From Helcococcus massiliensis (GTDB lineage: Bacteria > Bacillota > Clostridia > Tissierellales > Peptoniphilaceae): a stretch of DNA of 64,000 nucleotides. This document shows, piece by piece, positions 3,101 to 59,311 of this stretch. The notes beneath the pieces are model-generated. The model did not search any database, was not told the DNA's origin, and worked only from the letters and a program-made list of their open reading frames with translations. Position 1 is the first letter of the stretch; the number at the start of each line of letters is the position of its first letter. The stretch lies in NCBI RefSeq assembly GCF_900258485.1, contig NZ_OGVE01000003.1, positions 248,001 to 312,000 on the forward strand, written 5' to 3'. A program made the translations under genes and the position numbers.

Positions 3101-6100
3101 GCTTCAGTCTTTAATTTTGTTTTTGGACCAAGAGTTATTTTCTTCAAACTGTGAAGATATGATAGCATTGAACTTTGACCGGTCATATTAGTCATATCAA
3201 ATCCTGATAAATCTAGCTCTTCTAAAGAATGCATATTATCAAATATGGCAGCAAAATTTTCCACTTTTGAAGTCTTGAAACTTGATAAGTTTAATGTTTT
3301 TAATGACTCTACTCTTTGGAACATTTCGTCCATTCTTTTCATATTGCTTGTATCAAGCGTCTCTAGACCAATTAATTCTACTAACTCTTTATTTCCTCTA
3401 AACATCTCCCTGAATATTTCAGTCTCTGATGTATCTAGATTAGTCACATCTATTCTTTTAGCGTGAGTTGGTTTATTTCCACGATTAGAATCACTGCTTG
3501 AATCATTCCCAAAACCTGGAATGCCTTCTTCTGTAAAAACTCCACCGATAGATCTTCCACCTTTAACATTTTTCTCTATAGATAAAGAATCATATTTTTC
3601 ATGTACCCACGGAACATTTTCGCTTACATGCCTATAAGCTAAAAATTCATACTCACCTATACTTATCACACCTGCATCACTGCCTGTAGGTCTGATAACC
3701 AGATGACCATTATCATATATCTCCCAAGTGATTCCATGACTTCCATTTTCATTGTCTATTGTTCCACTTTTTACAACACGATGATTTGTTGTAATATATC
3801 CCTTACTTAAGGCATATGGAGCATCTGATGCTGCAGCTTCTACAGTGCTTGGTGTAAATAGATTTATCACACTATCCAATACATTTCTAAAGATGTTATT
3901 AGATGACTCTTTATCATTACTAAAGTTAGATACGTTTGATTCTTGATCATTAACATATGATCTTTTTATATCAAGTTTTCCTTTAGGTAAAAGATCCTTA
4001 TCACCCTTTAGTCTTACCTTGAATTTAAAAATCTTGTTAGGATCACCATAACCTTTTATTTCTTTTTGAATACTTAGTGAACCATCTTTATATTTGTTTA
4101 CAAATATAGGTAGACTTGGATCATTTTTTATATCATCTGTTTTCAAATCTTTAGCATTGGATTCAAAGGATAAAGTTCCATCTTTATTGTCTATGACTCT
4201 AACTGTATATTTTATACTGCTATCGTCATAAATCATGTCTTGGTTGTCACCAGCTAATTCTTTAATAGTAAATGTTTTAGTTTTATTTATATCAGTCTCA
4301 TCAAATTTCAGTTTAAAACTAATCTTACCATTTTCATCATTTTTGCTTTGAGCTAGCTCTTTACCTTCTTCATCATATATAGCAAAAGTAAAGTCATCCT
4401 TTTTAATTTCAAAATTATTTTGAATGAACTTCCAAGCCTTTAATTCAAGCTCACCTTCTGCCTTATATTCATTGATAAAGTGAGGATTATCATCACTATA
4501 TTCTAATTTTTTATCTAAGTATCTTGGACTAGCTGATATGGTTCCATCGCCATTATCTACTAAATCCACAGTAAACTCATATTGACTCTCATCATATTTT
4601 GTTATACCTTTTGCTCCTAGATTTCTTTCAACTAAAATATAATTAAATTCTTTACCAATATCTTCATAGGTAAATTCTATTGCTGCAAAGTTTATCTTTC
4701 CATCACTAGAGTTTCTACCTGAAGATACAATATTACCAGTAGCTTTATCTTTTATATCAAATAGGAATTCACCAGGGATCAAGTCTCTTCCTTTAAGGGT
4801 TTTACTTGCATCCAGTCTCAATTCACCTTTTGAAGTATAGATATTTACAGCTTTAACACTTTTTTCTTCCCCAGCTTGAATAGTACCTTGAATATTTTCA
4901 GAGTTTCTATTATCAAACTTATATCCTTGAGGTATGTTTGTTTCTACTAGTTCATATTGGTAGTCAGAGTTAACTTTTTCAATCACTACTTTTTCATTAG
5001 AATTAAATTCAATAAGTCCACCATTAGAACTTACGGTTTCTTCACTTATCTCTTCTTCAGTTTCCTTGTTATATTTAACAAATTTAAATCTTGAGTTAAA
5101 TATTTCTCCATCCGGTTTTCTTAAGAAGAATTCAAAAGTAAAGTTTTGGTCTTTATTACTTTCTAACTTATTTGTGATTTCTTTACTTATATTTAAATTT
5201 CCATAAGGAGTATATTTATTTGTGATATTGAAATCTTTTATATCACTTACATATCCATTAACATACTTTTCTTTTATGGTATAAGTTATTTCTTCACCAT
5301 TTTCGTATTTGAAAAGATTATCAAACTTAAATTTCCATTGACCATTTGAGTCAGGCCTTACAGTTTTTGTAATATATCTAACTCCATTTTTATAAAGCAT
5401 AATTTCTATACTTTCAGGTCTAGTAATTTCGTTTCGGTCATCCCATTTCTTTTCACCTTCAATTACAACAAGTTCTGGATTATGTTTATTTTTAGTATTA
5501 TATTTAATACCATTTTTTATATCTTCGCCAGGACCTGGTATAAAGTTGTAACCTTCTACATAATCTTCTTTTAATGAATATATTATCTTATTTCCATCTT
5601 TGTCTTGGTATGGTAGGTTTTCAAAAACACCCTTCCATTCATTATCATTAGATAATACCAAGGATTTTTCTGTATATACTCCATTTGCTAAAAGACGAAT
5701 GGTTACTGAATCTGTTCTTTTACCATCTCTATCATTAAAGTCGTCCCACTCTTTAGTTACTTCTATATTGTGTGGTTTTAGACCAACTTTAACATAGTCT
5801 TGTCTGATAAGTTCAACTTTTTGAGAACTATCACCTTTGGAAGCTGTAGATGCTAACATGCTAATGTTGTTATAGGCATGAGCACCTCCATTTAAGCCCT
5901 CTTCAGTTTCATTTTCTTTAAGGTCAGTGTCATACCATTTAGATTCTTCACCGGCTTTTGCCAGGTCTTTAACCATAGGTGCACTCATATTTATAATTAA
6001 AGAAATCTCTTCAAGTTCATTTAAAACAAAGTCATTTCCTTCAGTATCTTTTCTAGCATCTACAGCTATTGCTGTGATTTTAGACTTATCACTTGGCTCT

Positions 6101-47954: not shown

Positions 47955-48040
47955 TTTTACCTTCTTTGACTTTCTAAATAAAAAATAAGGTAGACCTAGT
48001 CTACTAAATAAATTTTACCATCTTTTACCTTTCTTGTAAA
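47955..48040 (-). promoter_or_regulatory. ctsR operon promoter with two CtsR-box-like sites
   Basis: TTTACA (48040-48035) and TAAAAT (48017-48012), 17-base spacer. The CtsR operator is a tandem heptad (A/G)GTCAAA-NAN-GGTCAAA. Here GGTAAAA-GAT-GGTAAAA lies at 48029-48013, covering the spacer and -10, and AGTCAAA-GAA-GGTAAAA at 47971-47955, just before the GTG. The spacing and NAN rule fit; three of four heptads have A in place of C. A perfect palindrome GTAGAC-CTA-GTCTAC lies between them (47990-48004). Confidence 0.7.
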
Positions 48041-48170: not shown

Positions 48171-49208
48171 TCATCGACTAATCTTATATAAGATTTCATT
48201 AAATATATAATCTTTATAAAATACAGGATAATCGTAATAATAGATGTATTTTTTTAAATCATTAATTTTCTCTCTACCTATTAGGTAATTTTGAAAATGA
48301 ATTAAGGAATTTTTAGTTTTTATTAAATCAATAATTGATTCATTTTCTAGATCTATTATCTCTTTTATCTCTTTTCTTGTGTAATCATAACTATAATCCA
48401 AGTATGATTCTTCATCATATTTTTTTCCTAAAATTCCTATTAAATAGTAAATATTTTTTACTTTTACATCTTCCATTAAAGTAATATTATTTTCTCTTAT
48501 TAAAACCCTTTTTATAATATCGTCAAGGTATTTTATATCAATTAATTTTACCTCTTCTACAATGGCGTTTTTATTAAGCGAAATTAATATATCAAGTAAA
48601 TATTCTTCATTAAGCTCCCTAGTTTTCAATAAATCACTGGCTATAAAATAATTATTTTCTTTAATGTAAAAAAAAGAAAGTAGTTTTTCTATAATTTCAT
48701 TTCTTCTATAAACTATAAATAGTGAATTATATTGAATATCTTCGTATATAAAACTTGGTAAAATCATCCCTGATATTAAAATTATTACTTCTTTTAATAT
48801 AAATATATCCATTCTATTTAATAAAAATATTAAAATAATAGCTGCTATAAATTTAGAAACATATTCAATATAAATTAATTCTAAAACTTTTTTATCTAAG
48901 TTGTTTTCTATATTAACAAATAAATTTCCTGAAAGTTTATTAAAATATAATTCACTTTTATATAGTAATTTAATAGGAGCAAACTTAATTTTCCCATCAT
49001 AAGAAAAGGGATATAATATTAAATAGTTAATCTTTTTATTGATGATTATATAAATAAAAATTTCTAGCAATGCTTGTGTATAGTATAAAAATAATAGCAT
49101 TAAAATAAGCAAACTAAATCCGAATCTCAAATTATACTTATTTAATAATGCTAGTGCTATATAGCAAAAAGTTATTGATAGAATAGATGCTTTTACTTTA
49201 CTTTTCAT
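48171..49208 (-). CDS. Multi-pass membrane protein paired with double-glycine peptide A
   Basis: 345 residues. About five to six membrane segments in residues 8-165, then a long charged cytosolic helical region (about 170-345) rich in Tyr, Ile, Glu. No HExxH or other catalytic motif. I do not recognise the family. The ATG shares one base with the stop of the peptide gene at 49208 (TAATG), so both are translated together, and the same arrangement is repeated for the other peptides in the island. A self-immunity role is inferred from that position. It is the last gene of the leftward cluster; no clear terminator follows. Confidence 0.75.
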   Translation of the reverse strand: MKSKVKASILSITFCYIALALLNKYNLRFGFSLLILMLLFLYYTQALLEIFIYIIINKKINYLILYPFSYDGKIKFAPIKLLYKSELYFNKLSGNLFVNIENNLDKKVLELIYIEYVSKFIAAIILIFLLNRMDIFILKEVIILISGMILPSFIYEDIQYNSLFIVYRRNEIIEKLLSFFYIKENNYFIASDLLKTRELNEEYLLDILISLNKNAIVEEVKLIDIKYLDDIIKRVLIRENNITLMEDVKVKNIYYLIGILGKKYDEESYLDYSYDYTRKEIKEIIDLENESIIDLIKTKNSLIHFQNYLIGREKINDLKKYIYYYDYPVFYKDYIFNEILYKISR

Positions 49209-49531
49209 TAGTAAAACAATCTTTTATTCCAAACTACCCACAGTCCAACCGTTGAAGCCATAACAGCCGCACCTATTACAATCGGATTTCCTGATAGTGC
49301 TGATATTTTCGCAGTAAGACTTGGAAAAAATATTGACGCTTGTTTCCATGTCATTTTAGCTAATTGTGCATTCGAAGGTATACCTGCCATCATTCTATTT
49401 GCATATGAAATTCCCATTTTTGTTAAAATTCCGTTTATGTTATTGGCGAAATTTTTTGCATCTCCACCTTCCAAATACACCATCTCTTCTTGTTCTATCT
49501 CTAAATAATTTTGTGGTAATACTAATTCCAT
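49208..49531 (-). CDS. Double-glycine leader peptide A (bacteriocin-like precursor)
   Basis: 107 residues. The leader (residues 1-23, MELVLPQNYLEI...YLEGG) ends in GG, the cut site of C39 peptidases such as the exporter at 53.6 kb. The 84-residue core has no cysteine, is rich in Ala/Gly/Ile and contains a hydrophobic helix near the end ('IVIGAAVMASTVGLWVVW'). This fits an unmodified class II-type bacteriocin, larger than most. SD AGGAGG 5 bases before the ATG is shared with the other three precursors. Confidence 0.82.
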   Translation of the reverse strand: MELVLPQNYLEIEQEEMVYLEGGDAKNFANNINGILTKMGISYANRMMAGIPSNAQLAKMTWKQASIFFPSLTAKISALSGNPIVIGAAVMASTVGLWVVWNKRLFY

Positions 49532-49583: not shown

Positions 49584-49763
49584 CTATTTTTTCAATTCAA
49601 ATATGAGCAATGCAATCAGAAATAATAAAACTAATACTATATTCGCAATTAGCAGCATTTTTCTTATATTAACATCAAAACTTTTATAAAATAAAAATGT
49701 AAAAGATGAGATGCACATTATTAATATAAATGAATAGAATAATATTTTTTCAAACGCCTTCAT
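49584..49763 (-). CDS. Small membrane protein paired with peptide B
   Basis: 59 residues from ATG 49763 (a GTG at 49775 overlapping the stop of peptide B is the alternative). Two membrane helices (about 6-28 and 33-55) and a lysine end. No known family. By position a candidate immunity protein for peptide B. Confidence 0.7.
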   Translation of the reverse strand: MKAFEKILFYSFILIMCISSFTFLFYKSFDVNIRKMLLIANIVLVLLFLIALLIFELKK

Positions 49764-49768
49764 TTTAA

Positions 49769-50143
49769 TCACCAAAACCAGTTAAGTCTGTTATTATTCG
49801 GATTAAGATCATAGCTATCCCATAAATTAGCAACTACATCTCCTACACTCATCCAACCTGAAAATTTTAATAAATTTCCAACTATCGTTCCTGTTATATA
49901 ATTAGCAGCTCTTACTCCAAGCCATTTTTTAGTTACATTGAATATTTCGTTTTTTACAATAGTTTTTCCATTTCTAGCAATATATCCTCTGAGTAAACTT
50001 ATTGTTCCACCACCAAGTAAAGCATTAAAAGCCATATTTATAGGTGCACTTACAACCCATTTGTATAAACTTAATCCCCCTTCCAAATACACCATCTCTT
50101 CTTGTTCTATCTCTACATAATTTTGCGGCAATACCAATTCCAT
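49769..50143 (-). CDS. Double-glycine leader peptide B (bacteriocin-like precursor)
   Basis: 124 residues; leader MELVLPQNYVEI...YLEGG (1-23), differing from peptide A by one residue. The 101-residue core has no cysteine, a glycine-rich hydrophobic stretch near the start ('FNALLGGGTISLLRGYIA'), basic residues in the middle and an Asn/Trp-rich end (LNWFW). The core is unrelated to peptides A, C and D. Same SD and upstream sequence as the others. Confidence 0.82.
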   Translation of the reverse strand: MELVLPQNYVEIEQEEMVYLEGGLSLYKWVVSAPINMAFNALLGGGTISLLRGYIARNGKTIVKNEIFNVTKKWLGVRAANYITGTIVGNLLKFSGWMSVGDVVANLWDSYDLNPNNNRLNWFW

Positions 50144-50187: not shown

Positions 50188-51477
50188 CTACTTTGATTTA
50201 AATCTCAACTTTTCTAAAAAATAATCTAAGTAACTTTCTTTATCATATATAATCCTAGCTTCAACAGGCATAGAAATTAATAAAGAAATTTCATCTCCCC
50301 CTTTTTTTAACTTTTTGTCTTTAACTTCTATAGTAGCTTTATAAAAGCTACTATTTCCTTCTTGTGATTGTGTAGTAACTAATCCATTTTCTATTGATTT
50401 TATTTTTCCTTTTAATGTCCCATACTTATATTCATTAACTCCTATTAATGAAAGATCTACATCTTGTCCAATTTTCACTTTAGAAATATCAAATAAATTT
50501 ATTAAGGCCTCAATATGATAATTATTTTCTTTAAGTTCAGAAATTTCAGCTAGAGTTTGATTTATTTGTATATTAACTCCTTCTTTTATAGGATTTATAT
50601 AATGAATATATCCGGATTTGGGAGCTAGTATTTCATAATTTTGGTCTCTTTTTTCTAAAACTGATATATTCATTTTTATCTCGGCATCTATTTTTTCAAT
50701 ATTCTTAAGGTCATTTCCAATTTCATTAATAAACTGAAAATAGATTTGCTTGGATTGACTTGGGCTATTACTGTTTTGTCTTTCTAATTGAGCTATTTCT
50801 TCTTTTAAACTTTGTATTTCAGATTCTAAAGACTCTATATTTGTTTTATATTCTTGATATTGTGCTTCTAGATCTGACTCTTTATGAATATCATTGTTTC
50901 TAGCTAGTTTTTTTAATTTATTTGATAAATAATCTTTCTCGAAAGTCTTTTCATTAATCTTATTTTCTTTCTTTTTTATATCTTGAATGGTAAAAGCTTG
51001 ATTCTTCTTTTCAGTCTCCATAGCTTGCAAATAGTATTCTACTTTACCATAATATTCTTGCTCGGTGCCTAAATCTTTTAAGTGATTTTTATTTTCATCT
51101 AATGATTTTCTATATCTATCTAAAAGTTTTCTTTTTTCAATATTTTTATCTAAAACTTTTTCATATTCTTTTCTTTGAGTGTTTTCTTCTCCATTTGATA
51201 TGCCCAAAATGAGAGTCCCTTCTTTTACCCAGTCTCCCTCTTTTGCTATAATTTTTTTAACTGTCCCATTAATATTAGAGGAAACATAAGATATATCCTT
51301 ATCAGAAACTTGTCCATTTGCCCTTACTATATAGGTTTTTCTAACTTTGCTTGAAATAAATACAAATAATATTAATAAAAATAAAGCAAAGTAAATAAGA
51401 ATAGTCATAAACTTAGCTGGCTTTTTATCAAAAAATATTCTTGAATTTTTTAATTTTTCTTTATTGTATAATTTCAT
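50188..51477 (-). CDS. HlyD-family membrane-fusion/adaptor protein for peptide export
   Basis: 429 residues. One N-terminal membrane anchor (about 26-45), a biotinyl-lipoyl-like strand ('INGTVKKIIAKEGDWVKEGTLIL', about 70-92), a long coiled coil (about 100-265), the second lipoyl half ('ILAPKSGYIHYINPIKEGVNI') and a beta-barrel end. Partners of C39-peptidase exporters have this build. ATGA overlap with the 155-residue gene upstream. Confidence 0.9.
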   Translation of the reverse strand: MKLYNKEKLKNSRIFFDKKPAKFMTILIYFALFLLILFVFISSKVRKTYIVRANGQVSDKDISYVSSNINGTVKKIIAKEGDWVKEGTLILGISNGEENTQRKEYEKVLDKNIEKRKLLDRYRKSLDENKNHLKDLGTEQEYYGKVEYYLQAMETEKKNQAFTIQDIKKKENKINEKTFEKDYLSNKLKKLARNNDIHKESDLEAQYQEYKTNIESLESEIQSLKEEIAQLERQNSNSPSQSKQIYFQFINEIGNDLKNIEKIDAEIKMNISVLEKRDQNYEILAPKSGYIHYINPIKEGVNIQINQTLAEISELKENNYHIEALINLFDISKVKIGQDVDLSLIGVNEYKYGTLKGKIKSIENGLVTTQSQEGNSSFYKATIEVKDKKLKKGGDEISLLISMPVEARIIYDKESYLDYFLEKLRFKSK

Positions 51478-51941
51478 ATCATTTTTACCGGTTTAAATAT
51501 ATCCATAACAATATGATCTTCCGACTCCTCTATAGAAACCATATAAATATCACCTCTTGTTATGATGTCTTCTTCGTATTCATATATTTCTAGTTTATTA
51601 AAAGCTAATTGTAAATACTCTGGTTTACCTTCATATCTAATATATAAACAATACTCGACAACAACTTCATCTAATACATTAAATTGATTTTTATACTGTT
51701 TATAATCGTGAGCTTGAATATACAAATCATAATCTGATGTGATGTCTCCATTTTCAGAAATTTTTACACCTTTATTTCTTATGATTAAAGGCCCAAAGGT
51801 TTGAGCCTTCAAAATCTGAATATTGTTATAGAATTTATTAATTTCAATATCAAGATTTTCAAATGGAATTAAGTCCAAAGTCTTATTAATTACTTTCTTT
51901 AGTATTAATTTTTTATTTTGCTTTACCACTAATCTTGGCAT
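51474..51941 (-). CDS. Protein of unknown function (155 aa) with GyrI-like/effector-binding features
   Basis: 155 residues, soluble. Segments 'FGPLIIRNKGV', 'VEYCLYIRYEGKPEYLQLAFNKLEIYEYE' and a terminal 'EESEDHIVMDIFKPV' resemble the GyrI-like or DUF5085-type fold, but I cannot be certain. Such domains bind small molecules or proteins. It overlaps the HlyD gene start by 4 bases, so it is a fixed part of the export unit, perhaps a chaperone or accessory for the precursors. SD AGGAGG. Confidence 0.6.
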   Translation of the reverse strand: MPRLVVKQNKKLILKKVINKTLDLIPFENLDIEINKFYNNIQILKAQTFGPLIIRNKGVKISENGDITSDYDLYIQAHDYKQYKNQFNVLDEVVVEYCLYIRYEGKPEYLQLAFNKLEIYEYEEDIITRGDIYMVSIEESEDHIVMDIFKPVKMI

Positions 51942-52027: not shown

Positions 52028-52189
52028 TTAAGTTTTAATCCTATTTATCTGTAAAAAAATAAATATTTGTAAAACTATTAAAAAAAATAAAGTATATTCA
52101 AATAATGTTAATTTAGAAATTCCTAATCTATAAATGATTAATATTGCTATCAATATTATCGATAATATACTAAATATTTTTTTAATCAT
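52028..52189 (-). CDS. Small membrane protein (53 aa) paired with peptide C
   Basis: ATG at 52189, one base after the TAA of peptide C, stop at 52028. Hydrophobic almost throughout (residues 5-20 and 29-47), with IIYRLGISKLT in the middle and a basic end. Its homologue at 19815-19967 heads the ABC exporter/rsgA operon. By position a candidate immunity protein. Confidence 0.8.
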   Translation of the reverse strand: MIKKIFSILSIILIAILIIYRLGISKLTLFEYTLFFLIVLQIFIFLQINRIKT

Positions 52190-52190
52190 T

Positions 52191-52505
52191 TTAAAAAATA
52201 TCCCGTGTTCCTAGTGCAAAAATAACAGCAGCACCAAGACCTAATGTTCCTACTTTAGCCCATGAAGGCAATAATATAAAAGCAGCCTTGGCACTAGTTC
52301 CCGTTTTAGCAACCAATGACCAAAATCCTATACCAGGATTATTCTTTATAACATTTTTTATAAAATTTGCTGTGCCAGCCATACCTGCAACAGCAGCTAA
52401 TCCTGTAAGATTTTTTAATACCTGTTTAGTACTCCATCCCCCATCCAAATACATCATCTCTTCTTGTTCTATCTCTACATAATTTTGTGGTAATACTAAT
52501 TCCAT
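52191..52505 (-). CDS. Double-glycine leader peptide C (bacteriocin-like precursor)
   Basis: 104 residues; leader MELVLPQNYVEI...YLDGG, identical to peptide D. The 81-residue core starts WSTKQVLKN, has no cysteine, and contains two glycine/alanine helices ('LTGLAAVAGMAGTANF' and 'AKVGTLGLGAAVIFAL') with GxxxG-like spacing. SD AGGAGG. The sequence upstream is a copy of the 3' end of the exporter gene (see repeat at 52503-52592). Confidence 0.82.
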   Translation of the reverse strand: MELVLPQNYVEIEQEEMMYLDGGWSTKQVLKNLTGLAAVAGMAGTANFIKNVIKNNPGIGFWSLVAKTGTSAKAAFILLPSWAKVGTLGLGAAVIFALGTRDIF

Positions 52506-52739: not shown

Positions 52740-52970
52740 TCATTTATTAAATAAATCGAAAGTACTTATAAGTGTAGCTCCGAAAACAGAGCCAAAAATT
52801 ACTTGCATTATTTCATTAAGATCTATTAGTAAAGAAATAATAATTAATAAAATAATAACGGACACGTTAATAATAATTTTATTTTTCTTAAATAGTTTTA
52901 ATACAGTATAACTAATTATTAAAGATATTAAGCCAATAATTAAGTTAGAATATCTTAACCCATCCATCAT
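52740..52970 (-). CDS. Small membrane protein, paralogue of the one at 58215
   Basis: About 76 residues from the ATG at 52970 (52967 also possible; SD AAAGGG). Three membrane helices, with 'YSNLIIGLISLIISYTVLK', 'FKKNKIIIN' and 'MQVIFGSVFGA'. The protein at 58215-58454 is clearly related (YSNLLIGLITLLISYTVLK, FKKNKIIIN, MQIIFGSIFGA). The gene overlaps the end of a broken double-glycine-type core, so it is probably the orphaned partner of that lost peptide. Confidence 0.75.
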   Translation of the reverse strand: MMDGLRYSNLIIGLISLIISYTVLKLFKKNKIIINVSVIILLIIISLLIDLNEIMQVIFGSVFGATLISTFDLFNK

Positions 52971-53076
52971 GTTTACCATCCCTTTTATCTAATTTTGTTG
53001 CTATATTACTTGCCAGTCCCGAAACTCCACCACTTACAATAGTTTTTAACCAAGTAGCAGCTAGTGTGTTTCCAAT
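52945..53076 (-). pseudogene. Remnant of a fifth bacteriocin-like peptide gene (core only, no leader or start)
   Basis: An open frame of about 43 codons without ATG or SD reads IGNTLAATWLKTIVSGGVSG, ASNIATKLDKRDGK..., ending WVKIF and stop. The Ala/Gly-rich composition, GGxxG motif and basic-aromatic end match the cores of the intact precursors. Its 5' end stops where the 59-residue gene at 53080 ends, and its 3' end overlaps the start of the 76-residue membrane protein, as in the intact pairs. Confidence 0.55.
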
Positions 53077-53079
53077 TTT

Positions 53080-53259
53080 TTATTCGTTCTTGTTATTTAA
53101 TAACACAAATGTTATAGCATATAAAATATTTAGTGTTGAAATTAAAATTAAAAAAATTATTATTTTAGGTATTCCATCAACAAAAAAATATAGAGCGGTC
53201 AGCAATATATTTACTATAAATAGTACACCTAGTCTATTTTTTATAGTTTCTCTTTTCAT
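53080..53259 (-). CDS. Small membrane protein (59 aa) paired with peptide D
   Basis: ATG at 53259, one base after the stop of peptide D (TAG-T-ATG), stop at 53080. Two membrane helices ('LGVLFIVNILLTALYFFV' and 'IIIFLILISTLNILYAITFVLL') and a charged NNKNE end. The SD is weak, so its translation depends on peptide D. Candidate immunity protein by position. Confidence 0.75.
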   Translation of the reverse strand: MKRETIKNRLGVLFIVNILLTALYFFVDGIPKIIIFLILISTLNILYAITFVLLNNKNE

Positions 53260-53260
53260 A

Positions 53261-53563
53261 CTACCAAGACCTAAATATATCTATCGCTTTATAGACTGAA
53301 TAATAAGATAGCCCAGTGTTTGTGGCAATGAATCCTGCAACTTTTGCTGCACCTAACTTTGCTACGAACTTACCAAAAGTCATCCCCATTATTTTTGCAC
53401 CTAGCCAAAATTGTCCTGTTGTTAAAGCTGCTGTCAAAGCTGCTCCCGAAATAGCTATAGCTCCTAATAATAAAACTTTATCAGAATTCGACATCCCTCC
53501 ATCCAAATACATCATCTCTTCTTGTTCTATCTCTACATAATTTTGTGGTAATACTAATTCCAT
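53261..53563 (-). CDS. Double-glycine leader peptide D (bacteriocin-like precursor)
   Basis: 100 residues from the ATG at 53563 (GGGAGG 5 bases upstream; an ATG at 53584 lacks an SD and would spoil the shared leader). Leader as in peptide C. The 77-residue core starts MSNSDKVLLLGAIAISGAAL, has no cysteine, two hydrophobic Ala/Gly helices and ends IDIFRSW. First peptide gene after the exporter. Confidence 0.82.
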   Translation of the reverse strand: MELVLPQNYVEIEQEEMMYLDGGMSNSDKVLLLGAIAISGAALTAALTTGQFWLGAKIMGMTFGKFVAKLGAAKVAGFIATNTGLSYYSVYKAIDIFRSW

Positions 53564-53622
53564 ATCTTCCTCCCTGATTAGCATTATTCTTTATGATATA
53601 AATCATAAAATTAGTGACATTC

Positions 53623-55848
53623 TTACATATATGTTATTATTTCAGAATCATTTTCAATTATAATTTCTTTATAAGTTTCATCGAATTTATAATTCTGAAT
53701 TTTAACCATATTAAAATAATCTTTTTGTGCACTTATTAATTCTTCATGGCTTCCTAACTCTTTTATATCTCCATTTTTTATCAAGCAAATCTTATCGCAA
53801 TTTACTATTGTTGAGATCCTATGAGCTATTATAATTACTGTCTTGTTTTGAATTTTGTTAAATATTAAATCTTGTATAATCTTTTCGCTAAAGGAGTCGA
53901 GATTTGATGTTGCCTCATCAAAAATATAGATGTCCGAATCAGATAATAAGGCTCTTGCTATTGCCAATCTTTGCTTTTCTCCACCCGATAAATTTCCACC
54001 TTTTTCTTCAATAAATGACATATACTTATTTTGAAGTCTATCAATGGTATCGTGAATGCCAACCATCTTACATACAGAAACAATTTCTTCGTATGTAGCA
54101 TTTTGATTACCTATTTTAAGATTATCTATTATAGTTCCTGAGAAAAGTTCAATTTCTTGAGGAATATATGATATTTTATTTCTTAAAAAGTAAGCATCAA
54201 TATCAGATAAGTCATTTTCTCCAATCGATATTTTTCCTTCTTTTACATGAATGAACCTTAATAAAAGTTTTACAATGGTTGATTTACCAGCCCCACTATC
54301 ACCAACGAAGGCAAACTTTTCTCCTTGTTTTATCTTAAGGTTGAATTCATTTAATAAATTTGGCCTTGCTCCATAAGCAAAAGTTACATTCTTAAATTTA
54401 ATGTCTTTTTTTAGATCAACATCTTTTATTGAATATTCCATATCTTCATCTTCTCTAGTCAAATCCATCAGTTCATTTAATCTAGATATAGCAATAGATG
54501 ATTCTTGAAAGGTTAATTGAAGACTTACCAAATTTTGTACTGGTTCTGTAAAATATTGACTAATGGATTGAAAAACAATCAAATCTCCTATAGTCATTTT
54601 TCCATCAATAATAAACAAAGCACCTATTCCCATAAAAATAAGTCCACCCAAAGTATTAACTAAAGACGAAATTGAGCCTTGTATATTAGATAGGACTCCC
54701 TCTTCATAATCTATTTTTAAGGTGGAGACAAATTTGTTTTCCAAGTTTTCTAACTGATTACTCTCATCATTTAAAGCTTTGACTGTATTAATATTTTGTA
54801 TGGATTCAATTAATTGTGAATTAAGAATTGAACCCGCTTCCATTTGTTTCCTATTTATTTCTTTATATGGCTTTTTAAATATATAAATCAATATTATATT
54901 TATCAAAACCATAGAAAATAAAATTAAAAATAATTTAGCATTTATTTTAAGCAACACTATAGTGCTTATTAGAGATAAAATCAGATCTAATATTAAAGAA
55001 ATTGATACCGTTGTAAATATATCTTTTACAGTCATAGCATCTTGAAATCTTGTAATTATATCACCTGTTTTTCTCGTTGAAAAAAATGTATAAGGTAAGT
55101 GTATGATGTGATTGTAATAACCCATAAGCACTGGAATATCAATTTTCCTTGATAAAAATAAAAGTATATGCTGTCTAAATGCAGATAAAAAAGTCTGTAA
55201 AATTGAAACTAGTCCAAAAACTATCAAAAATATATACAAAGTATTTTTTAATTTGTAAGGAATAATTTCATCCATTAATATTTTAGAAAAGATGCTTGAG
55301 AATATCCCTAACATACTTAGTAAAGCTGATGCTAATATAACGGTAATAAATATATTCTTTTGAGGAAATATCAATTGCTTAAATATATTAAACATCGATC
55401 CAGATCTATACTTTTTCACCTCGAAATCTGACCTTGGAACCATAAAAATAGCTGTTTCTAAAAATATATCTTCTAGTTCTTTGAATGATATTTTCTTTAT
55501 CCCGACTGCCGGATCATCTATTATAAATCTATTATTTCTAAGTACTTTATGAAGAACAATAAAATGATTTTCTCCACTTTCAGTTTTAACTTGAAGTATT
55601 GCAGGTAAAGTTATTTTATTGTTAAAATCTTTTAAGCAAACTCTAACAGCTTTTACATCAAAATTTTCTTTTTCTAGACCATAAACAATTCCCTTAACGG
55701 TTATACCATACATGTCTGTTCCAATTATTTCTCTAATCTTCATAATGCTATATTCTTTTTTATAACTTTTAAGAACTGTTGATACAACCGCTGCTGCACA
55801 ATCAGATTGATCATGTTGCAAGGTTGATGGAAATTTTCTAAACATCAT
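53623..55848 (-). CDS. C39 peptidase-containing ABC exporter (PCAT)
   Basis: 741 residues. N-terminal C39 peptidase: Cys17 in QHDQSDCAAA, His95 in 'GENHFIVLHK', Asp in 'FIIDDPAVG' (about 111); six-helix export domain (about 160-460); ATPase with GDSGAGKST (about 520), LSGGEKQRLAIARALL (about 625) and 'IYIFDEATSNLDS'. It should cut precursors after GG and export the cores. Together with HlyD and four GG precursors it makes a complete export system. It follows the 51-residue candidate pheromone gene by about 40 bases. SD AGAGG before a double ATG. Confidence 0.95.
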   Translation of the reverse strand: MMFRKFPSTLQHDQSDCAAAVVSTVLKSYKKEYSIMKIREIIGTDMYGITVKGIVYGLEKENFDVKAVRVCLKDFNNKITLPAILQVKTESGENHFIVLHKVLRNNRFIIDDPAVGIKKISFKELEDIFLETAIFMVPRSDFEVKKYRSGSMFNIFKQLIFPQKNIFITVILASALLSMLGIFSSIFSKILMDEIIPYKLKNTLYIFLIVFGLVSILQTFLSAFRQHILLFLSRKIDIPVLMGYYNHIIHLPYTFFSTRKTGDIITRFQDAMTVKDIFTTVSISLILDLILSLISTIVLLKINAKLFLILFSMVLINIILIYIFKKPYKEINRKQMEAGSILNSQLIESIQNINTVKALNDESNQLENLENKFVSTLKIDYEEGVLSNIQGSISSLVNTLGGLIFMGIGALFIIDGKMTIGDLIVFQSISQYFTEPVQNLVSLQLTFQESSIAISRLNELMDLTREDEDMEYSIKDVDLKKDIKFKNVTFAYGARPNLLNEFNLKIKQGEKFAFVGDSGAGKSTIVKLLLRFIHVKEGKISIGENDLSDIDAYFLRNKISYIPQEIELFSGTIIDNLKIGNQNATYEEIVSVCKMVGIHDTIDRLQNKYMSFIEEKGGNLSGGEKQRLAIARALLSDSDIYIFDEATSNLDSFSEKIIQDLIFNKIQNKTVIIIAHRISTIVNCDKICLIKNGDIKELGSHEELISAQKDYFNMVKIQNYKFDETYKEIIIENDSEIITYM

Positions 55849-55889: not shown

Positions 55890-56045
55890 TTATAAGTACG
55901 CTTCTATTATGTCCTCTACATTATTAGGTTTAATGTACTCACCATCAATATCATCTTGATAAACGATCATTTCAGTAAGATTATCCTGTAAGCAATAATT
56001 TGTAACCCCATATAGCATTAATAAAAATAGTAATAATTTTCTCAT
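55890..56045 (-). CDS. 51-aa secreted peptide, candidate signalling pheromone
   Basis: ATG at 56045 with AGGAGG 5 bases upstream. N-terminus MRKLLLFLLMLYGV looks like a short signal peptide; the rest is acidic (YQDDIDGEYIKPNNVEDIIE) and ends AYL. It has no GG leader. It is encoded back to back with an XRE+helical-repeat regulator, as in PlcR-PapR, NprR-NprX and Rgg-Shp systems, where a short exported pro-peptide of about 25-50 residues is processed and re-imported to act on the regulator. The role here is inferred from size, signal and position only. Confidence 0.6.
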   Translation of the reverse strand: MRKLLLFLLMLYGVTNYCLQDNLTEMIVYQDDIDGEYIKPNNVEDIIEAYL

Positions 56046-56072
56046 ATCTTCCTCCTATAAATTGTTATATGA

Positions 56073-56120
56073 TATAATTATAATGAAATTTATATTTATT
56101 ACTGTGCATAGTTTTGCACA
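56073..56120. promoter_or_regulatory. Divergent promoters with a perfect TGTGCA-N6-TGCACA operator
   Basis: Overlapping TATAAT elements point both ways: leftward 56082-56077, rightward 56079-56084. TGTGCATAGTTTTGCACA at 56103-56120 is a perfect 6-6-6 palindrome. Its centre (56111.5) is at about -41.5 of the leftward start, the place of a class II activator site in a promoter lacking a good -35, and downstream of the rightward start, where it would repress the regulator gene. Confidence 0.65.
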
Positions 56121-56137
56121 TTGGGAGCTTTATTTAT

Positions 56138-57019
56138 ATGTTAAACAAAAATTTTGGCTTAGTCTTAAGGAATTTAAGAACTAAAATGAATCTTACACAA
56201 GTAGATCTCAGCGAGATGGCTTACATAAGCAGAAGAAAATTAGTAAATCTAGAAAAAGGGAAAACAAGTCCAAATATTGAAGATCTTTTTTCCCTATCAA
56301 AAGTATTAAAAAAAGATTTGTCCCTTTTGTTCGTGGAATACCAAAAATTTCAAGATAATAATTTAAAAAATTTAATTTATCAAATAGAATCTATTCTATC
56401 CGATATGAATTATAATTTACTAAAAGAACCTCTTCATACTTTAAGAAATTATAAAGATTTAAGTTCACATATAAGGCAATATTACTATAGTTTTTCAGGA
56501 TTTTATTATATGAAATCAGATGAATTAGACATTGACTTAGCTATAAAATATCTAAATAAATCTTTAAATGTAAACATAGGTGATTTTAACATAGATAATT
56601 TTTTAAGTTATACTTATTCAGATCTTGAACTAAGAAGCTTGATAGCCCTGGCTGATTGCTTACGATATAAAGGCAATTCCAAACAATATCTTGATATATG
56701 CGAATTTTCATTTAAAAATTTATCTGATATTGATATAAGCTATTTTATAGTTACGATAAATTATGCGACTATATTGTCAATGAACAAGGATTATGATTCT
56801 AGTATTGATATAATTAATAAATGTATTGAAAATAGCTGTGAATCAAATATTCATACATATCTTCCATTTTTGTATTATTTGCTCTATATAAACTACAAGA
56901 AATTAAATGATGATAATAAAACTAAAGACTACTTAAATAAATCTCTTTTTTTATGTGATTGTTTCAACAAAAAAAACCTTAAAAAATTAATTATTAAAAA
57001 GCTTGACTATAATAAATGA
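56138..57019 (+). CDS. XRE-family regulator with TPR-like C-terminus (Rgg/PlcR/RNPP-type)
   Basis: 293 residues from ATG 56138 (GGGAG 10 bases before; the ATG at 56114 would start inside the palindrome). HTH of Cro/CI type in residues 1-60 ('VLRNLRTKMNLTQVDLSEMAYISRRKLVNLEKGKTSPNIEDL'), followed by about 230 residues of helical pairs resembling degenerate TPR units, the build of peptide-binding RNPP regulators. Likely controls the divergent export island and itself. Confidence 0.82.
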   Translation: MLNKNFGLVLRNLRTKMNLTQVDLSEMAYISRRKLVNLEKGKTSPNIEDLFSLSKVLKKDLSLLFVEYQKFQDNNLKNLIYQIESILSDMNYNLLKEPLHTLRNYKDLSSHIRQYYYSFSGFYYMKSDELDIDLAIKYLNKSLNVNIGDFNIDNFLSYTYSDLELRSLIALADCLRYKGNSKQYLDICEFSFKNLSDIDISYFIVTINYATILSMNKDYDSSIDIINKCIENSCESNIHTYLPFLYYLLYINYKKLNDDNKTKDYLNKSLFLCDCFNKKNLKKLIIKKLDYNK

Positions 57020-57139: not shown

Positions 57140-57345
57140 AAATAAGTTTTAAAAATGAAAAGTGATTTTTATACTTACATTTTTCGGAGTTTTGTAAGTA
57201 CAGATTTTAAAAAGTGATTTTAAAACTTATTTTCATCTGCTCAAATAAGTACAAAAGTCGAAAAATGATTTTTACACTTACAATTTTTGAATTTTCGTAA
57301 GTATAGAATACAAAATGCGATTTTAAAACTTATTTTCAAAATTAT
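57140..57345. repeat. Two tandem copies of a 103-bp element with nested inverted repeats
   Basis: Copy 1 starts at 57140, copy 2 at 57243. In copy 1 the ends AAATAAGTTTTAAAA (57140-57154) and TTTTAAAACTTATTT (57218-57232) are a perfect 15-bp inverted repeat, and inside it TACTTACA/TGTAAGTA form a second one. Copy 2 keeps the inner repeat and the right arm, with a changed left arm. No open frame. The rest of 57020-57454 holds nothing else that I can support. Confidence 0.8.
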
Positions 57346-58214: not shown

Positions 58215-58454
58215 CTATCTCTTTTTTTGATCATAAAAATAATCAATGATATTTATTAAAACAGCACCAAAAATAGATCCAAATATTATCTGCATAGTTT
58301 CATTAGACTTTAATAAAACTGCACCAAGAACTAACAAAACAATTAAAGATAGATTAATAATAATTTTATTTTTCTTAAATATTTTTAGCACAGTATAACT
58401 TATTAATAAAGTTATTAATCCGATTAATAAGTTAGAATAATTTATTCCATCCAT
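58215..58454 (-). CDS. Small membrane protein, paralogue of the one at 52740
   Basis: 79 residues starting MDGINYSNLLIGLITLL, three helices, ending YDQKKR. Over 60 percent of positions agree with the bacteriocin-island protein at 52740-52970, and the bases before both starts (GATAAAAxGGAT) are alike. It stands outside the island, between the deacetylase and AIM24 genes, without any neighbouring GG-leader gene, so it may be a spare immunity gene or have another role. Confidence 0.8.
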   Translation of the reverse strand: MDGINYSNLLIGLITLLISYTVLKIFKKNKIIINLSLIVLLVLGAVLLKSNETMQIIFGSIFGAVLINIIDYFYDQKKR

Positions 58455-58486: not shown

Positions 58487-59311
58487 CTACAATATATCCG
58501 ATACTGTTACAAATTCATAACCTTGGGATTTCAAGTATTCAATTACACTTGGTACAGCATCTACAGATGTTTCATGGATGTCATGCATCAATATGATAGC
58601 CCCTGGATGAACTTGTTGTTTTACAAATTTCATTATTGAAGCAGTATTTCTATGCTTCCAGTCTAGAGTATCCACTGACCAGTTTACCATTGTTTGTCCA
58701 TTGTTTTTGATGGCCTTCTTTACATTATCATTGAAACTTCCATAAGGAGGTCTTACAAATTTTGGTTTTTGTACACCACTATTGATTATAGCTTGGTCTG
58801 TAGATGTAAGTTCCTTCATAACATTATCATATGATAACTTTGCAAGATTTGGATGGTTGTAAGAATGGTTTGCCACTTCATGACCCTTGCTTGCCACTTC
58901 CTTAACTAAGGCTGGATATGCATTTGCATTTTTACCTATCATAAAGAATGTAGCTTTTACATTGTACTTGTCCAAAATATTTAGTAGTTTTTTTGTCCTA
59001 GTTGGGTGTGGGCCATCATCAAAGGTAAGGGCCACATATTTTTTGCTAGGATCTTTTGCTTCTTTTTCTGTTTCCTTTTCTGTCTCTTTAACTGTTTCTT
59101 TTTCAGTTTCCTTAACCGTTTCTTTCTCTGTCTCTTTCTCTGTTTCCTTTCGTGTTTCCTTTTGTGTTTCTTTTTCTGTCTCTTTAATAGTTTCTTTCTG
59201 TGTTTCTTTTTGGCTTTCTGTTCCAGTTTCTGTGTTTACTTTATTTGAACCTGAACATCCTACTAAAAAAGCAGAAATAAGTAGTAATAATAAAAATACT
59301 CTCTTTTTCAT
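58487..59311 (-). CDS. Polysaccharide (peptidoglycan-type) deacetylase lipoprotein
   Basis: 274 residues. Lipoprotein signal with Cys19 in FLVGCSGS, then a Lys-Glu-Thr repeat stalk (KETEKETEKETV pattern, residues about 30-87) and a NodB domain with all five motifs: TFDDGPHP (about 96), HSYNHP (about 147), RPPYGSF (about 189), 'VNWSVDTLDW' and 'ILMHDIH'. It should remove acetyl groups from GlcNAc or MurNAc in the wall, often giving lysozyme resistance. The stalk is low-complexity DNA and may vary in length. SD GGAGG. Confidence 0.93.
   Translation of the reverse strand: MKKRVFLLLLLISAFLVGCSGSNKVNTETGTESQKETQKETIKETEKETQKETRKETEKETEKETVKETEKETVKETEKETEKEAKDPSKKYVALTFDDGPHPTRTKKLLNILDKYNVKATFFMIGKNANAYPALVKEVASKGHEVANHSYNHPNLAKLSYDNVMKELTSTDQAIINSGVQKPKFVRPPYGSFNDNVKKAIKNNGQTMVNWSVDTLDWKHRNTASIMKFVKQQVHPGAIILMHDIHETSVDAVPSVIEYLKSQGYEFVTVSDIL

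Follow-up and report, generated by a model that had tools for sequence, protein, structure and literature searches.

The window, i.e., the whole stretch of 64,000 nucleotides that was analysed, contains a regulator gene that stands back to back with a small open reading frame (ORF) for 51 residues; the latter opens a long run of genes on the minus strand (Table 1). The pairing of a signal-peptide-like gene with an XRE+TPR-like regulator, to which an earlier note on this DNA had drawn attention, is borne out: the small ORF has a strong AGGAGG ribosome site, and its product starts with a hydrophobic N-terminus. All genes leftward from the operator-like inverted repeat lie on the minus strand, with the 51-aa peptide gene as the first; the gaps between them are mostly shorter than 100 bp, the largest being 234 bp, and between 47.9 and 57.4 kb the hairpin at the operon end is the sole terminator-like site that is listed for the minus strand. 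Since the genes share a strand, the gaps are short and the sole listed terminator lies past the last gene, one promoter could serve the whole cluster.

Table 1. Features of the regulator-bacteriocin locus (positions in the window)
Feature	Position	Strand	Remarks
Terminator-like hairpin (intrinsic type) GTAGACTAGGTCTAC with T-rich tail	47990..48004	-	operon end
345-aa protein	48171..49208	-	last gene of the operon; overlaps precursor 4; no family match
Bacteriocin-like precursor 4	49208..49531	-	shared double-glycine leader
Small hydrophobic protein, likely immunity	49584..49760	-	judged by position and hydrophobicity
Bacteriocin-like precursor 3	49769..50143	-	shared double-glycine leader
HlyD-type accessory (membrane fusion) protein	50188..51477	-	HlyD_3 6.1e-14; TIGR01843 4e-34, below cut-off
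155-aa conserved island protein	51474..51941	-	74% identical in the G002 island; no family match
53-aa hydrophobic protein, likely immunity for precursor 2	52028..52189	-	1-bp gap to precursor 2
Bacteriocin-like precursor 2	52191..52505	-	shared leader; 83% identical to the G002 orthologue
79-aa membrane protein, likely immunity	52740..52979	-	91% identical to the G002 island copy
Small hydrophobic protein, likely immunity for precursor 1	53080..53259	-	1 bp after precursor 1
Bacteriocin-like precursor 1	53261..53566	-	double-glycine leader MELVLPQNYVEIEQEEMMYLDGG
Peptide cleavage/export ABC transporter, C39 peptidase domain	53623..55848	-	TIGR01193 9e-161, above curated cut-off; Peptidase_C39 1.2e-27
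Candidate pheromone precursor, 51 aa, MRKLLLFLLMLYGVTNYCLQDNLTEMIVYQDDIDGEYIKPNNVEDIIEAYL	55890..56045	-	N-terminus resembling a signal peptide; AGGAGG ribosome site; back to back with the receptor gene
-10 element TATAAT, leftward promoter	56077..56082	-	perfect; no -35
Operator-like inverted repeat TGTGCA-N6-TGCACA	56103..56120	.	unique in the genome at ≤2 mismatches; equally good repeat in just 61/5000 dinucleotide shuffles of the 92-bp intergenic region
Regulator, 293 aa	56138..57019	+	N-terminal XRE helix-turn-helix (residues 10-63), TPR-like C-terminal domain

The earlier note spoke of an export island. Export genes are indeed present, namely those for the C39 transporter and HlyD, but the region is more exactly described as a double-glycine bacteriocin cluster. 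The four precursors have the leader MELVLPQNYxEIEQEEMxYLxGG in common, and small hydrophobic proteins directly follow three of them. By its gene content, namely a C39-peptidase ABC transporter, an HlyD protein and several precursors with a common GG leader, the cluster is of the class II type, with antibacterial activity predicted. A search of the genome contigs for the transporter retrieved distant transporters alone. A remnant of a fifth bacteriocin precursor is seen at 52948-53079 on the minus strand: the ~44 residues at its end (KIGNTLAATWLKTIVSGGVSGLASNIATKLDKRDGKHDGWVKIF) correspond to a complete precursor of the orthologous island in a sister species, and the leader is missing.

Proposed operator, receptor and candidate signal

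The 92-bp gap between the 51-aa ORF and the regulator contains the inverted repeat TGTGCATAGTTTTGCACA, i.e., TGTGCA-TAGTTT-TGCACA. The designation "perfect palindrome", used earlier, has to be amended: two exact 6-bp arms flank an asymmetric 6-bp spacer. The placement of this site held up on inspection, both as regards its position at about -41.5 of the leftward promoter (counted from the centre of the repeat, the perfect TATAAT on the minus strand has its first base 29 bp away) and as regards the lack of a -35 element, the best candidate for which matches at 2 of 6 positions. On the other side, 17 bp separate the end of the repeat from the regulator ATG, so that the site adjoins the ribosome site of the regulator; it is plausible that the operator lies just after the presumed rightward transcription start. 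The same abutment of operator and regulator ribosome site is found at two other loci, L062 and L107.

This promoter plan recurs. In five promoters, the distance between the operator centre and a perfect TATAAT is 29, 30, 31, 32 and 32 bp, with 29–31 bp in the window and at both sites of the sister species and 32 bp in two divergent gene pairs of another genus; TATAAT matches are easy to get in AT-rich promoters, and none of the five has a consensus -35. This independent recurrence of the geometry is the best argument for the repeat as the site of the regulator and for activation from about -41 to -44, and the lack of an own -35 in the promoter favours an activator over a repressor.

A genome scan for the palindrome before other genes, as proposed in the earlier note, brought to light no regulon: the exact site is present in a single copy in the 1.36-Mb genome, and no further copies are found in it at ≤2 mismatches to the full site. 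The next-best full-site matches have 3 mismatches, one of them in a coding region (L002) and another upstream of a rex-type gene (L003). With a relaxed spacer, the search stayed at the background level (14 hits vs 12 in the reversed control).

As for the regulator itself, the ATG at 56138 is a better start than the longer TTG at 56114, since the latter falls within the inverted repeat. The top PDB match of the protein is PlcR (2qfc), aligned over residues 5-289 with E=4.6e-4; a profile built from 11 relatives reaches PlcR at 2.1e-14 over the entire PlcR length, behind matches to designed TPR repeats, and matches ComR more weakly than PlcR. The Pfam HTH_3 domain is recognised at 5.5e-11, above the gathering score, and identifies the DNA-binding domain as an XRE-type helix-turn-helix, while RNPP_C stays below the cut-off (0.0017; 18.3 vs 26.5 bits) in the regulator and is found in 6 of the 11 family members, at best with 7.9e-9. 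The PlcR alignment and the family profile together mark the C-terminal part as a TPR-type peptide-binding domain. Asn208 of the regulator aligns with Asn201 of PlcR, which we take to be the conserved asparagine that contacts the peptide backbone, and 49 of the 55 family members have Asn at this position. A single-sequence structure model (pLDDT 43) was too poor to use, and a pattern search for receptor relatives in genome and virus contig collections found none. By homology, the regulator is a PlcR-type RRNPP receptor, with peptide binding predicted. In the family tree, it forms one clade (support 100/100) with L036 and L037, two regulators of the sister species G002, and all three adjoin bacteriocin clusters.

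The 51-aa ORF lies 92 bp from the receptor gene, in divergent orientation, and its product is predicted to be secreted; no clear AxA or lipobox cleavage site could be read by eye in its signal sequence. The C-terminus is NVEDIIEAYL, and the signal likely resides within ...EDIIEAYL. The idea that the peptide is a cargo of the C39 transporter was rejected, as it has no double-glycine leader. Across 130 family genomes, no homologues of the peptide were found, the matches being at chance level alone.

Precursors beside related receptors and the island of a sister species

The environment of related regulators was compared in a set of 55 from the family and order, with 120 other genes of the same loci as controls. 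A small ORF of signal-like type, equipped with a ribosome site, is found within 150 bp of 26 of the 55 regulators vs 2 of the 120 control genes (Fisher p=1e-13, a value that is too small because the rows are related and the pair of the window is itself counted). Regulators with such a neighbour are spread over many separate clades, and at least six of the adjacent pairs are divergent, as in the window. Within the regulator's own clade, the pairing of receptor and peptide is seen once: beside its two closest relatives, L036 and L037, no peptide gene is recognisable.

The precursors themselves show a limited resemblance. Near their C-termini, 12 of them have the core pattern [ILT]I[DEN]x[YFHC], in the window precursor as IIEAY and in the 11 others in forms such as LIDQF, IIDIY, IIEWF, TIEWY and IIEWH; one core-bearing precursor, L042, is ~2.8 kb from the nearest receptor and hence not strictly adjacent. 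As this pattern was chosen after the alignment had been viewed, and a match of the window peptide is expected in 4% of shuffles, the core counts as a hint. Several precursors have a repeated motif (IEPISIY); two copies of the likely signal (IEPISIY / EPISIY) occur in receptor-adjacent precursors of another genus of the family (L096 2711-2923, L097 4131-4343 and L103 2920-3096). A direct kinship of the "EPISIY" and "IEW" groups of precursors with the window's signal was weighed and, save for the short core, discarded. Judging from these comparisons, the pheromone role of the 51-aa peptide is backed by adjacency and by the short core that it shares with other precursors, whereas its sequence as such is not conserved.

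An orthologous island (L125) is present in G002, which is another species of the genus. The transporters of the two islands are 82% and the HlyD proteins 53% identical, the values for one immunity protein, one precursor and the 155-aa protein being those of Table 1; in contrast to these 53–91% for the machinery, the regulators are 36% identical. The G002 island contains no peptide gene and has a different operator, GGACAAATTTGTCC, of which the G002 genome harbors two copies alone at ≤1 mismatch, both before a transporter start. The island of G002 adjoins a rex-type gene; because a rex-type gene is on another contig in the window's genome, the island seems to have been transferred together with its regulator. 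A third genome of the genus lacks both the regulator and this transporter.

The difference between the islands can be envisaged as "pherotype" switching, that is, orthologous islands of one genus would carry exchanged or fast-diverging modules of pheromone, receptor and operator, and a new family of signals would be recognised by an order-wide core, (I/T)-I-(D/E)-x-aromatic. The grounds for this reading are the machinery at 53–91% vs the receptor at 36%, the change of operator from TGTGCA-N6-TGCACA to GGACAAATTTGTCC, and the precursor in one species alone; we put it forward tentatively, as possible rather than probable.

Two further observations pertain to G002. At 3121-3525 and 4629-6935 of L125, the operator and the transporter start are duplicated, and an internal deletion has removed the greater part of the transporter from the first copy. 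Besides, L124 (8137-17075) harbors another double-glycine bacteriocin cluster, unlike the first, whose own regulator (L036) belongs to the same clade and has no precursor beside it; among the inverted repeats listed for this cluster, all AT-rich background, no operator was found.

Proposed circuit and competing explanations

Taken together, the gene layout, the homology, the unbroken operon as read from the sequence, the unique operator and its conserved distance to the -10 element make it rather probable, in our judgment, that an RRNPP (PlcR-type) pheromone-receptor pair heads and activates the bacteriocin operon, with export, processing, import, binding, activation and autorepression inferred. 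After export, the 51-aa precursor would be cut down to a short peptide from its C-terminus, near EDIIEAYL, which would re-enter the cell via an oligopeptide permease and bind to the TPR domain of the divergently encoded receptor; import is possible since the genome encodes two oligopeptide-binding proteins (SBP_bac_5). The peptide-bound receptor, sitting on TGTGCA-N6-TGCACA ~41.5 bp upstream of the start, would substitute for the missing -35 contact and switch on the single leftward promoter, thereby raising the output of the peptide (a positive feedback) along with that of the C39 transporter, HlyD, the four double-glycine bacteriocins and the likely immunity proteins. That the liganded receptor activates the operon in this way is most likely by analogy with PlcR and ComR/ScuR, from which both the activation and the positive feedback are borrowed. 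Occupancy of a site just upstream of the receptor's ribosome site may, in addition, limit receptor synthesis; autorepression is suggested by this abutment.

The PlcR-PapR-like logic proposed in the earlier note is thus well supported: homology and the family-wide gene adjacency speak for it, and so does the orthologous promoter, which is built in the same way. The alternatives differ in what they leave of it. A PlcR-type receptor could control the bacteriocin operon in response to a signal other than the 51-aa peptide, as an orphan or eavesdropping receptor of the kind seen in G002, the small ORF then encoding some other small secreted or membrane peptide, for instance, an immunity peptide. 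The two closest relatives, which reside in bacteriocin clusters without an adjacent precursor, the lack of any homologue of the 51-aa peptide, and the commonness of receptors without neighbouring precursors in this protein family (PMC9765709) all speak for such an arrangement; we nevertheless hold it to be unlikely, given the adjacency in the wider family (26/55 vs 2/120), the position of the 51-aa ORF as the first gene under the operator, and the similarity of its mature region to other precursors in charge and core.

It is still less probable that the regulator represses the operon until the peptide relieves it, after the manner of PrgX or QsrB, with the operator near -41.5 blocking the polymerase. 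The overlap of the operator with the -35 region would fit, and an apparent peptide-relieved repressor is known in Clostridium acetobutylicum (PMC7376267); however, the promoter, whose best -35 matches at 2/6 positions, favours an activator, PlcR, the nearest solved relative, is an activator, and ComR/ScuR promoters of the same plan are activated (PMC6703854). Finally, an ordinary XRE repressor without peptide signalling, beside which the small ORF and the inverted repeat would be incidental, seems very improbable: the N-terminal domain is matched strongly by short XRE families as well, but the full-length PlcR match with the peptide-contact Asn, the precursor adjacency across the family and the promoter plan kept in G002 all speak against it.

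Relation to known systems

The proposed PlcR-type pair is best compared to PlcR-PapR of Bacillus cereus. Common to both are a receptor with an XRE helix-turn-helix and TPR repeats, matched over the full length with the Asn aligned to N201; a short precursor with an acidic signal beside the receptor, predicted to be secreted here; and a palindromic operator upstream of the -10 element, from which the receptor is thought to activate. The differences are no less clear. The receptor of the window is distant in sequence, and its precursor is divergent from the receptor gene. The operator TGTGCA-N6-TGCACA is not that of PlcR proper, TATGnAnnnnTnCATA: the half-site TGTGCA corresponds to TATGnA with one mismatch, and the spacer has 6 bp as compared to 4 in PlcR (consensus in PMC2464732). 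The target seen is one adjacent bacteriocin operon, unlike the dispersed virulence regulon of PlcR. The precursor ends in ...EDIIEAYL and is not of the PapR type (ADLPFEF and variants). The acidity emphasized in the earlier note is not odd, PapR7 being ADLPFEF (PMC6568020) and most of the related propeptides found being acidic.

Other RRNPP systems share parts of the plan. ComR, ScuR and SarF of Streptococcus salivarius are RRNPP receptors that turn on bacteriocin genes, the ComR/ScuR promoters that drive bacteriocins being built of a dyad, a spacer and a -10 box (PMC6703854), but the receptor of the window is nearer to PlcR than to ComR by sequence, its precursor has a Sec-like signal, and the operator differs. 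TprA-PhrA of Streptococcus pneumoniae likewise joins a PlcR-subfamily receptor and its peptide to a neighbouring cluster for an antimicrobial peptide (PMC5436883, PMC10075063); that cluster, however, is of the lantibiotic type, whereas the precursors in the window have double-glycine leaders, are accompanied by a C39 transporter and show no sign of being modified. The Qsr/QssR systems of solvent clostridia combine clostridial RRNPP receptors with adjacent precursors of 39-50 aa (PMC7376267), but their targets are solvent formation and sporulation, and the C-terminal Leu/Pro/Trp pattern of their precursors is absent in the window.

The concept of a biosynthetic cluster beside an RRNPP system is not new either: the survey of Bernard et al. 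2023 lists 196 such clusters, one of them in Peptoniphilaceae (PMC10075063). The kind of system described here is hence already known, and the "new circuit" of the earlier note shrinks to what is new in it, namely the subgroup of receptors, the operator and the candidate signal, together with the way in which the two islands differ. If the proposed scheme is true, it would name an operator, a receptor and a candidate signal through which cell density controls bacteriocins, in a lineage for which the papers found describe no worked-out case. Synthetic C-terminal peptides would then be a simple switch for a possibly silent bacteriocin cluster, and the two sister islands would offer a clean test of a change in pheromone specificity with the cargo unchanged.

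Some features of the window lie outside the operon. Two 96-bp direct repeats with internal inverted repeats, 80% identical and 103 bp apart, occupy 57140-57338 between the regulator and the next gene. A 79-aa membrane protein encoded at 58215-58454 on the minus strand, alone outside the operon, is 66% identical to the likely immunity protein at 52740-52979 and is possibly the product of an orphan immunity gene. It is followed in position by a polysaccharide-deacetylase-like lipoprotein gene (58487-59311, minus strand), the product of which has a long KETEKETE-type repeat after the lipobox.
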